Source: Clostridia bacterium (GTDB taxonomy: Bacteria > Bacillota > Clostridia > UMGS1883). From it: a stretch of 64,000 nt of DNA. Under the pieces are notes generated by a model that saw only the letters and a list, made by a program, of their open reading frames with translations, was not told the DNA's origin and searched no databases. Below, piece after piece: positions 1,296-4,651 of the stretch. A program made the translations under genes and the position numbers. The stretch is taken from contig JAUNBL010000006.1 of the NCBI GenBank assembly GCA_030527235.1, positions 1-64,000 on the forward strand, given 5' to 3'. The first letter of the stretch is position 1. Each line of letters begins with the position of its first letter.

Positions 1296-1928
1296 ATGGA
1301 ATATTTTCTTGCACCGAATGGAAAGCACATACCCATTCCAGCAGGCAGGGTAACGACTTTCGGTTTGACTGAGGAACAAAACGAACTGATCCGGGGTGCT
1401 TTTCCCACAAAAGATTATGAGCTTTTAGATACCGATGCACCTACCGATTTGATTGCCGTTTATGCTACATCTCAAATTATCAATGCTTCCGCTTTGGATG
1501 CAGATGGTTTGGAACTGCTGTTTGAGTATTATAACGAAGTAATTGACCATATGGGTGAAACCGTTTTTTGGTTGGGCTATCCGAAGCCACCGCATCCATT
1601 ACGCATCAAGTTTCGGTGCTATGAAAACTTCGGTGAATTGGCGGTCAATCTAAAATATCATTTATTGACTGCACAGGGCAAAGCTAAAAAGATAAAAGAT
1701 TTTAGTAAGAGATTGGCTGACAGTTTGCTCATTCTCTCTTTGATTCGTCTGCATCCGGGAATTAAAACACGGGAACTTGCTGAAAAAACGGAGCAATCTA
1801 TCCGTACTGTCCAGCGGTATATCGCAACCCTGCAAGCAACGGGGGAGTGGATTGAGTACAATACAGCATCAAAGGGATGGGAACTGCAAAGCGGCATATC
1901 TGTTTTGTTTGGTGACCATCTGAAATAA
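1296..1928 (+). CDS. HTH-domain protein, probable transcriptional regulator
   Basis: A 210-residue protein. The C-terminal about 70 residues carry a winged-helix-type HTH of the DeoR/HTH_11 kind: helix (LLILSLIRLHPG), helix (KTRELAEKTEQ), recognition helix (SIRTVQRYIATLQATGE) and a short wing. The N-terminal about 130 residues are of unknown function. The ATG at 1296 is chosen because AGGAGA sits at the right distance upstream; an in-frame upstream start at 1167 has no such site. It is the first gene of a three-gene same-strand group with the glycosylase-like gene (2002) and the PolC-DnaB fusion (2716), and may control them. No specific family name can be given. Confidence 0.7.
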   Translation: MEYFLAPNGKHIPIPAGRVTTFGLTEEQNELIRGAFPTKDYELLDTDAPTDLIAVYATSQIINASALDADGLELLFEYYNEVIDHMGETVFWLGYPKPPHPLRIKFRCYENFGELAVNLKYHLLTAQGKAKKIKDFSKRLADSLLILSLIRLHPGIKTRELAEKTEQSIRTVQRYIATLQATGEWIEYNTASKGWELQSGISVLFGDHLK

Positions 1929-2001: not shown

Positions 2002-2709
2002 ATGAATCAAGCGATGGAGTATCAAGCCAAAATTCAGAGTCTGTTTAACGAATGGAAAGCAAAGCCCGAAAAGAATGGTATTGATCATCAAAACAGTATT
2101 TTTGTCAGGGATGGTATCGTATGCCCAGAGCAATGGTATTCGCAAGAGACCCGACCAATGTTTTTGCTGAAAGAAGCTTATGGTGGTAATGGTGATTGGG
2201 ATTTGATTGCCGACCACCTGCTTACCTCTGGCAAAATGGGACGAGGTACCTGGCGTCGTGTTACAGAATGGACAAGAGGATTGCTGTCCACCTCAAGCAG
2301 CTACATTGAACCGTATGCTGATGACTCCGCAAACTGCTATGGAAATCAGTGCTTGAAAAAAATCGCTGTTGTAAATGTAAGAAAGAGTGGTGGTACACCT
2401 TCATCCAATATGGAATGCATCAATAATTATGCCCGAACAGATGCATCTGAACTCAAGTGTGAAATTGAGTTGATCGACCCGACTGTTATTGTCTGCGGGT
2501 ACACTATATCATCACTCAATATTATTATGGGTCATGATATCAAAAATTACGGCAAAACCAATTCTAATCTATATTACCACATGACGCTAAACAAACATGA
2601 TGTTATCGTTTTGGATTACTGGCATCCTTCCAATCATTATCCAGACATTATGAATTACTATGGTTTGATTGGAATATACCAGCAGGCACTCCTTCAGAAA
2701 GGCAAGTGA
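2002..2709 (+). CDS. Hypothetical protein, possible uracil-DNA glycosylase-like fold
   Basis: A 235-residue cytosolic protein that I do not recognise with certainty. Three blocks appear in the order seen in family 4/5-type uracil-DNA glycosylases: RPMFLLKEAYGG (position of the GEAPG loop), IAVVNVRKSGG followed by IDPTVIVCGYT (central strands), and DYWHPSNHYP (position of the catalytic HPS loop). This is a pattern reading, not a proven homology; the canonical first motif is poorly kept. The ATG at 2002 is preceded by GGAGGAAT; an upstream ATG in frame at 1945 lacks this. The next gene starts only six bases after the stop, so the two are surely co-transcribed, pointing to a shared DNA-related role. 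Confidence 0.6.
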   Translation: MNQAMEYQAKIQSLFNEWKAKPEKNGIDHQNSIFVRDGIVCPEQWYSQETRPMFLLKEAYGGNGDWDLIADHLLTSGKMGRGTWRRVTEWTRGLLSTSSSYIEPYADDSANCYGNQCLKKIAVVNVRKSGGTPSSNMECINNYARTDASELKCEIELIDPTVIVCGYTISSLNIIMGHDIKNYGKTNSNLYYHMTLNKHDVIVLDYWHPSNHYPDIMNYYGLIGIYQQALLQKGK

Positions 2710-2715
2710 GGTTCC

Positions 2716-4479
2716 ATGCCGATTGAATTTGATACTATTTATAAAGAAAAATCCCCAGAAGAAATACTCTCTCTACTATGGGATACTGTTCAATCCGCAG
2801 TGTCTGATCAGTACGGTAATACTCCCGACTCAGAAATTACCGAAAGAGTGCGTCAAGAATGGAACGCCATGGAACGAAGCAATAGCGTTCTTGATGTAGC
2901 TGCATTGTTTGAATTAACTCTTTGGCTGAAAGAAAACAATATTCCATATATGGTTCGTGGCTGTGGAGGCTCCAGTTTCATCCTGTTCCTTTTGGGTGTC
3001 ACTTTCGGGAATCCGATGCCGCCCCATTATCATTGTCCTCACTGCCACACAATTCATTGGGCCACAAACCACTTAGATGGATTCGATTTGCCGCAGGGCA
3101 AAGTGTGTGAACGTGATGGAAGACAACTTACTTCCGATGGTCACAATATTCCGTGGCAAACGCTTTTTGGATATGGCGAATATATTCCGGTTTTTGATAT
3201 TGATTTACCTGCATACTTGTATGATGATTTCGTGAGTGCAGTAGAAACACATTGGTTGAACAAGTATAAATCTGATACCGAGCATGATATGCCGAATGAT
3301 ACAAGTAAAATCAGCAAGCACTTCTTTAACCTTAACTTCATATTTTTATTGGACAATGTATTGATTCACAAGTCGTTTCACACAAAGGCTCTAAATGTGT
3401 CCTGTGTCGAATTAGCATTAAATGCATGGCAGACACTTTTGAAATACACAGAGTATTATAAAGAGCATTATGATGATGAAGTGATGCCGCCGCCGGATTC
3501 CTTTGCAGATTTGATTTCACTTTTTGGTATTATGCATTCGACAGGAACATGGGATGAGGCGGCATCGGCGATGAACCTCTACCTTGATTACAGTTTGTCC
3601 GATATGATTGCATTTCGGGATGATGTATACCACTATCTGCTGGCGCATAATTTTCTGGAAAAAGATGCGTGGCGAGAAATGAATCGAGTACGCATGGGCA
3701 ATAATTTACGTGCTGTCACGGATGAAATGAAAATCTCCCGCGATAAATGGGTGCTGAACCGGTGCGAGAGAATAGCATATCTATTTCCCAAGTCTCACGC
3801 CGTTGAGTATATATTGTTTTGGTTGAAAGCAATGGTTCTCCCAGAGACAGAGCATGGATTGACAACAGGGTATTCAGAATTAGACAGAAGCCTTTCAGGC
3901 ATTGACAAAACAGATGTCATTCTTCTTGGGGGAAGACCCGCCATGGGGAAAACGCAGCTTTCATTGGGTATTGCCAAACATATTGCCGCAAACGGAGATA
4001 AAAAGATAATTGTGTTTACCGAACCCAAAGAAACAGCACGATGGATGAAGATACCCACAGTTACAATTTACGCAGGAAATCCCATGAGTATTGATACGAT
4101 CCGAGATAAAATCAGAACAACAGATTTTGATCTTGCGATAATTGACACGCTCCAATTGGTTAAGGAGTTTGACAATAAAGCCAAATGGTTAATGAGAGAA
4201 ATCAAAGTCATCGCAAAAGAAACCGAAACCCCTATTATGCTTACATCTAATCTTTCCAGAAGAATTGAACGCCGAAACGACCATATCCCGCGGCTGGAAG
4301 ATATCCCTAATTATAGGAACGTGGAACCATATACCGACAGGATATATTTCCTGTATCGTGAAGCATACTACACCTATGATGCTGACCGTTCCGAAGCATG
4401 GCTCTTTTCCATTAAAAACGTTCGGGGTAATATTGGCGAGAGTCTCTTAACAATCAACTGGGATGATGAATATGAATGA
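2716..4479 (+). CDS. PolC-like polymerase segments fused to a DnaB-like helicase ATPase
   Basis: A 587-residue protein with two parts. Residues about 60-372 match blocks of Gram-positive PolC in PolC order: the RGCGGSSF loop, NPMPPHYHCPHC and GFDLPQGKVC (zinc-knuckle region), DGHNIPWQTLFGYG, then DID at 161-163 where PolC has its catalytic DID, a possible third aspartate at D213 (LLDNVLIH against PolC LDILGH), FADLISLFGIMHSTGTW, SDMIAFRDDVYHYLL and ERIAYLFPKSHAVEY. Exonuclease, PHP and most of the fingers are missing. Residues about 378-587 are a RecA fold of DnaB type: Walker A GGRPAMGKT (405-413), VFTEP with E436, Walker B LAIIDTLQLV, and DNA-binding loops ending in DRIYFLYREAYY. The DnaB N-terminal domain is absent. 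Whether the polymerase part is active cannot be decided from sequence. Its start follows the previous stop by six bases. Confidence 0.85.
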   Translation: MPIEFDTIYKEKSPEEILSLLWDTVQSAVSDQYGNTPDSEITERVRQEWNAMERSNSVLDVAALFELTLWLKENNIPYMVRGCGGSSFILFLLGVTFGNPMPPHYHCPHCHTIHWATNHLDGFDLPQGKVCERDGRQLTSDGHNIPWQTLFGYGEYIPVFDIDLPAYLYDDFVSAVETHWLNKYKSDTEHDMPNDTSKISKHFFNLNFIFLLDNVLIHKSFHTKALNVSCVELALNAWQTLLKYTEYYKEHYDDEVMPPPDSFADLISLFGIMHSTGTWDEAASAMNLYLDYSLSDMIAFRDDVYHYLLAHNFLEKDAWREMNRVRMGNNLRAVTDEMKISRDKWVLNRCERIAYLFPKSHAVEYILFWLKAMVLPETEHGLTTGYSELDRSLSGIDKTDVILLGGRPAMGKTQLSLGIAKHIAANGDKKIIVFTEPKETARWMKIPTVTIYAGNPMSIDTIRDKIRTTDFDLAIIDTLQLVKEFDNKAKWLMREIKVIAKETETPIMLTSNLSRRIERRNDHIPRLEDIPNYRNVEPYTDRIYFLYREAYYTYDADRSEAWLFSIKNVRGNIGESLLTINWDDEYE

Positions 4480-4595: not shown

Positions 4596-4651
4596 ATTAT
4601 GCACCGCCGCCTGTGGGGGCTTTACAGTCCCTGCGGGCGGCGGTGCATAAT
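4596..4651. repeat. Perfect 16-base inverted repeat near the element end
   Basis: ATTATGCACCGCCGCC (4596-4611) and its exact reverse complement (4636-4651) flank a 24-base loop. It stands alone in a 190-base gap between the convergent PolC-DnaB and DUF6061-type genes. It could act as a bidirectional terminator, but there is no T-run on either side, so a REP-like or element-end structure is equally possible. Confidence 0.8.

Follow-up and report, generated by a model that had tools for sequence, protein, structure and literature searches.

What kind of protein is encoded by a gene that carries motifs of PolC, the replicative DNA polymerase III alpha subunit of Firmicutes, followed in the same frame by motifs of the replicative helicase DnaB, and what might it do for its host? 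To address this we analyzed the first 64,000 nucleotides of contig JAUNBL010000006.1 from a Clostridia bacterium (GCA_030527235.1), a stretch referred to here as the window. The relevant features are the following.

1296–1928, forward strand: probable regulator, 210 aa, with a C-terminal HTH_11 domain (Pfam, 5.6e-7) and an N-terminal domain in common with small proteins of WYL islands
2002–2709, forward strand: putative UDG-like (uracil-DNA glycosylase superfamily-like) protein, 235 aa, from its family profile against the PDB; ends 6 bases before the fusion gene
2716–4479, forward strand: mini-PolC-DnaB fusion protein, 587 aa, single ORF (NCBIfam PolC, 1e-43; Pfam DnaB_C, 6.5e-32)
2758–3207, forward strand: first PolC palm block, residues 15–164, with the GSSF loop, zinc-region cysteines and FDID (D161, D163)
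3487–3831, forward strand: PolC fingers block, residues 258–372, with GIMHSTGTW, FRDDV, VRMGN and YLFPKSHAVEY
3847–4476, forward strand: DnaB RecA-type ATPase domain, residues 378–587, from Pfam DnaB_C, Foldseek and motif comparison
4596–4651, no strand: G+C-rich inverted repeat (26-nt arms, 4-nt loop, 85% complementary) between the fusion gene and the chromosomal genes

Architecture of the fusion gene

The frame at 2716–4479 runs from an ATG start through 587 codons with zero internal stops, and all of the motifs quoted in an earlier note on this DNA were present in the order given there, PolC-type before DnaB-type. Those of the PolC half are RGCGGSSF (residues 81–88), PPHYHCPHC (102–110), CERDG (131–135), FDIDL (160–164), LLDNV (211–215), GIMHSTGTW (271–279), FRDDV (300–304) and YLFPKSH (355–361). 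NCBIfam PolC models matched the protein at 1e-43 and 1.9e-42 in two stretches (24–164 and 260–370), although the score of 149 bits is far below the equivalog cut-off of 873, and Pfam DNA_pol3_alpha scored 23.6, just below its cut-off of 23.9. The best solved relatives in the PDB were PolC (8.9e-31) and DnaB (5e-21). We therefore consider the architecture firm: a cut-down piece of PolC joined to the motor half of DnaB, as the note had proposed. Since the host genome also encodes a long PolC, a polymerase of DnaE size and a DnaB at other loci, the fusion protein is an accessory one.

Compared with PolC (~24–25% identity), the fusion retains the helices preceding the GSSF loop, the loop itself, the zinc region, the FDID strand and the fingers block, but lacks the NTD, OB, Exo, PHP and thumb regions, the GVKRTTGQHPGG (template-binding) block, the palm strand with the third aspartate, the HhH and the clamp motif. 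Cysteines 107, 110 and 131 of the zinc region are in place, with Asp 134 at the fourth ligand position, which is likewise Asp in a relative from Phascolarctobacterium (L007). Two details of the earlier note had to be revised. D161 and D163 align with catalytic aspartates of PolC, but its candidate for the third, D213, has no alignment support. Furthermore, the fingers are not mostly missing: in related mini-PolCs, Pfam DNA_pol3_finger matches the part equivalent to the second block, which marks this block as the fingers domain. What was lost is the thumb together with the remainder of the palm. Its doubt about polymerase activity was well placed given the missing thumb, GVKRTTGQHPGG block, third aspartate and clamp motif, and the PolC piece is probably inactive. 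The window copy does keep FDID and Walker A, so some activity may remain.

The second half matched Pfam DnaB_C over residues ~381–579 (6.5e-32; 111 bits versus a cut-off of 27). Its Walker A motif (GGRPAMGKT, 405–413) is intact and Walker B (IIDTLQL, 475–481) is recognizable, but the two are separated by 64 residues rather than the 103 seen in two ordinary DnaB proteins, leaving 39 missing. Relative to DnaB, motif H3 carries N in place of Q, the arginine-finger motif KNR reads KNVR, and the N-terminal collar domain is missing, with the mini-PolC in its place. By its sequence, then, the motor is an eroded one. A DnaB tree gave no firm placement for this half. The structural comparison proposed in the note was clear for one half and weakly favorable for the other: the AlphaFold model of the fusion had high confidence in the RecA half, fair confidence at residues 10–140 and poor confidence at 145–380, and Foldseek matched the full model to DnaB via the RecA half (3e-18). 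For a separate model of the PolC half, the top five Foldseek matches were all PolC (1e-9 to 3e-8), which adds little to the sequence evidence because its mean pLDDT was only 47.5.

Relatives and neighbors of the mini-PolC

When 391 genomes of the class were searched with the fusion protein, a mini-PolC was found only in its own genome and in one other (2/391). In the latter (G137), a free-standing 399-aa mini-PolC with FDID kept follows a homolog of the UDG-like gene of the window, with no ATPase partner visible. The Phascolarctobacterium locus (L007) encodes a 300-aa DnaB-like protein and, starting 2 nt after that gene, a 376-aa mini-PolC. What is fused in the window is here split into two genes that stand in reversed order, and genes for a WYL regulator and a PDDEXK_4 nuclease flank the pair. 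A third locus (G694) reads WYL regulator, 196-aa DnaA ATPase fragment (Pfam, 8.5e-38), 360-aa mini-PolC and, by profile comparison with the UDG-like family (hhalign P 3.4e-5), a matching protein; its mini-PolC finds the window protein as best match (3.5e-64, versus 2e-33 for L007). A fourth (G455) combines a mini-PolC with PDDEXK_4, WYL and a PHP-PolC paralog, and a second locus in the same genome carries WYL, FtsH-like, HD, PHP-PolC, PDDEXK_4 and NA37 genes. The WYL regulator is adjacent to the mini-PolC in L007, G455 and G694.

In a tree, the mini-PolCs of the window, L007 and G694 formed a clade (100/100) separate from PolC and from other minis. Its branches are long and attraction is possible, but the identity gap argues against this: the window copy is 36.6% and 33.5% identical to L007 and G694, compared with ~24–25% to PolC. 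A replication ATPase recurs as partner of the mini-PolC, in different physical forms (a fused DnaB in the window, a separate DnaB-like gene in L007, a DnaA fragment in G694), and a UDG-like neighbor recurs in the window, G137 and G694. The fused architecture, which the earlier note suggested seeking in mobile elements, did not turn up there. Searching phage and plasmid collections with the fusion (tblastn) yielded partial PolC-like or DnaB-like matches, none covering >80% of the query; viral contigs contained no relative of the fusion protein or of the mini-PolC alignment, and scanning them with the DnaB half recovered only ordinary phage DnaB (~30%).

The gene immediately upstream of the fusion belongs to a family whose profile best matches a uracil-DNA glycosylase in the PDB (4zbx, E 0.0023). 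Pfam UDG matches were weak and limited to 4/7 members, with none for the window copy, and we regard the UDG assignment as weak and the protein as putatively UDG-like. Elsewhere, members of the family adjoin a WYL gene (L207) or lie near one (L206), and a Vibrio plasmid carries two such genes beside or between restriction enzyme genes. At L206:2415-8782, the UDG-like gene occurs near the WYL gene with a 1,157-aa helicase-like protein and large proteins of unknown kind, a locus looking like an undescribed defense island.

The first 100 residues of the window regulator match small proteins near a WYL gene in L173 (7e-13) and L195 (4e-7), and a profile of this domain also finds L168 and L174. All four of these WYL loci carry replication paralogs, although L168, L173 and L174 are mutually related. 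The window locus is therefore linked to WYL islands by its mini-PolC clade, the N-terminal domain of its regulator and its UDG-like gene. No WYL gene was seen in the window, where 1.3 kb of contig precedes the regulator, and elsewhere in the host genome there was only a weak WYL match. The cassette has a G+C content of ~0.40–0.42 versus 0.48–0.52 downstream, and the inverted repeat that follows the fusion gene is possibly a terminator or the cassette border. At the contig start, beyond which sequence is lost leftward, positions 5–667 hold a sigma-70-type gene whose best match is a phage sigma-factor family (PHROG 351, 1.5e-32).

Replication-protein paralogs in WYL islands

We searched one bacterial order with the WYL protein and found it in 59 of 189 genomes; the order is represented by a single family, presumably Acidaminococcaceae, to which Phascolarctobacterium belongs. 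From these, 34 neighborhoods (L164–L197, ~484 kb) were picked by WYL alone. Shortened paralogs of PolC, DnaE, DnaB or DnaA were enriched, occurring in 10 of the 34; a few are truncated by the end of a contig or region. One further locus has an apparently extra full-length PolC. If the four genes were single-copy in 2.6 Mb, ~0.7 loci would be expected, but the ten are not fully independent because some loci are related. Other cargo among 78 scanned proteins included ADP-ribosylglycohydrolase (7/78) and DUF1643 (5/78), together with PARG, RtcB, RF-1-like genes and pentapeptide repeats. Neighbors also include PDDEXK_4 nucleases, one of which scores as PADLOC PDC-S26 (4.6e-21); the fusion itself gave no specific match to PADLOC models, only weak ones in the ATPase region.

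In one WYL island, L191:10735-12036 encodes 433 aa with two tandem DnaA ATPase domains and no recognized DNA-binding domain, beside an ADP-ribosylglycohydrolase. At L192:4201-8019 and in L193, an apparently extra full-length PolC (1,272 aa) adjoins a WYL-domain gene, and both genomes hold another full-length PolC. PHP-PolC paralogs of 863–928 aa (L050:4745-7435, L074, L075, L076 and L078) keep PHP, palm and fingers and stop before the HhH and clamp motif; several retain DID. Truncated DnaE-like proteins with replaced catalytic aspartates were seen at L173:5705-7402, L168:7400-9505 and in L174 (dN/dS 0.22–0.31).

Catalytic residues have been lost in most relatives. The note had raised conservation of the DID aspartates across homologs, but FDID is present only in the window and G137; the position reads AVR in G694, YLS in L007 and AIT in G455, and is unrecognizable in four longer minis. 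DnaE-like relatives have LPEFKLGY and LPEFYLAY at the catalytic-aspartate site, where the canonical DnaE form is MPDFDVDF, and one DnaB-like relative has GMT replacing GKT. Tested pairs of altered island proteins nevertheless showed dN/dS values of 0.20–0.31, indicating purifying selection, and were therefore retained for something other than catalysis; across related island pairs the range was 0.12–0.31. The PHP-PolC relatives G455a, G659 and G698 keep all three aspartates, and G698 nests within the PolC of its own lineage (99.6/99), implying that host PolC was recruited more than once.

Possible roles of the cassette

Our preferred reading, held with slightly less than even confidence, is that the window contains a cassette of the WYL-island type that pairs a UDG-like DNA enzyme with a largely inactive mimic of the replisome, the latter serving as bait, decoy or poison. 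The cassette would consist of the regulator, the UDG-like enzyme and the mini-PolC-DnaB protein, a kind found in WYL-regulated defense-like islands. Upon infection or DNA stress, the regulator would permit expression, and the fusion would imitate two replisome surfaces, the nucleotide/fingers region of PolC and the RecA ring of DnaB. Lacking a thumb, a clamp motif, a whole active site and a normal motor, it would work either as a poison that stands in for genuine subunits at the invader's replication fork, or as a decoy or bait whose surface is bound by helicase loaders of phages, by factors that recruit PolC or by inhibitors of the replisome; the UDG-like neighbor would be the DNA-acting partner. 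We infer that the window copy is under control of the WYL type, that it interacts with a replisome and that its purpose is directed against invaders. The gene may belong to an undescribed mechanism by which bacteria detect the replication of foreign DNA or stop it. More tentatively still, the DnaA ATPase, DnaB ring domain, DnaE and PolC could have been repeatedly duplicated, stripped of catalysis and selected in WYL islands as anti-invader replisome mimics, with the fusion as the most compact form seen.

Known systems offer partial parallels. WYL regulators co-localize with phage defense, and BrxR/CapW-type loci place a WYL regulator beside variable cargo (PMC9122601, in excerpt), although here the cargo comprises replication-protein paralogs and the window itself shows no WYL gene. 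Brig1, an anti-phage DNA glycosylase, sets the UDG superfamily in a defense context (PMC11078745); the putative UDG-like neighbor can be likened to it at the superfamily level, but Brig1 is sufficient for immunity alone. A replisome-interfering or defense role, as suggested in the earlier note, is plausible.

The most serious alternative, though on balance unlikely, is a DNA-damage-response module modeled on ImuA-ImuB-DnaE2, in which a non-catalytic polymerase relative and a RecA-fold ATPase would scaffold a repair or bypass polymerase while the UDG-like protein would remove damaged bases. The kinds of parts match (inactive polymerase, RecA-fold ATPase, base-excision-like enzyme), the mutasome likewise pairing a non-catalytic polymerase relative with a RecA-fold protein (available text of PMC3919608), and WYL regulators also act in DNA-damage control (PMC10693628, in excerpt). 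NA37 and HD proteins are present in islands, and the PHP-PolCs with three aspartates (G455a, G659, G698) could be the active partner, but no active polymerase adjoins the window gene. ImuB is, however, a Y-family polymerase relative and ImuA a RecA homolog, families other than those of the fusion, and ImuB, ImuA and DnaE2 were absent among profile matches of the window cassette. The very patchy distribution (2/391 genomes of the class) and the PDDEXK_4, PARG and ADP-ribosylglycohydrolase genes in the neighborhoods also count against a repair module.

Decidedly less likely is immunity by target mimicry, in which the paralogs would soak up agents that target replication proteins, whether proteinaceous toxins or modifying enzymes such as ADP-ribosylating ones, and adjacent repair enzymes would reverse the damage. 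The islands do hold ADP-ribosylglycohydrolase, PARG, RtcB and RF-1-like genes beside DnaA, DnaB, DnaE, PolC and FtsH copies, and descent of the G698 PHP-PolC from the PolC of its own lineage is expected of a host-target mimic, but the window cassette is without an ADP-ribose enzyme and no known PolC or DnaB toxin is implicated. A replication gene or remnant of a mobile element (a primase-helicase or initiator analog of an integrative element or satellite) is improbable: the lower G+C and the phage-type sigma-factor gene would fit, but no integrase, relaxase or origin was recognized within 4.5 kb, phage, plasmid and viral collections matched only partial PolC or DnaB, and catalytic residues of relatives are eroded yet under selection. 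It is very improbable that the protein is a functional, pared-down repair polymerase linked to a helicase motor. The window copy does retain Walker A, FDID, the GSSF loop and the motifs of the fingers, but these are offset by the missing polymerase parts, the loss of DID in its nearest relatives, the shortened Walker A–B segment and the altered arginine finger. A pseudogene or assembly artifact, suggested by degenerate motifs and a draft host genome (82% complete), is scarcely credible given the intact 587-codon frame, tight operon spacing and sister proteins with similar boundaries in other genomes, and we reject the pseudogene reading because of the dN/dS of related island pairs.

Returning to the replisome mimic, no description of a PolC-DnaB fusion, a replisome decoy or such WYL islands was found in the open-license literature, although one may exist elsewhere, and the portions available of two C-family surveys (PMC3919608, PMC12926913) mention no mini-PolC, PolC-DnaB fusion or islands of this type. 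This agrees with the earlier note, which knew of no protein of such design. The first survey, in the part available, describes PolC as an evolutionarily compact group, so a selected, non-catalytic family of PolC, DnaE, DnaB and DnaA paralogs is unexpected even if its purpose is DNA repair. If the mimic reading is true, degraded copies of a cell's own replication proteins have been put to use against foreign DNA, either to attack it or to detect it, and these short proteins could help to identify the replisome surfaces that phages have to contact.

Two further candidates were set aside. L050:10555-11247 appeared UDG-like by eye but did not match a two-sequence UDG profile. In the one-contig genome L051, an apparent short PolC paralog proved to be the normal polC locus with its frame split in two: this chromosomal polC (L051:5359-9623) reads as frames of 633 and 788 aa, reflecting an error, a frameshift or a split gene.
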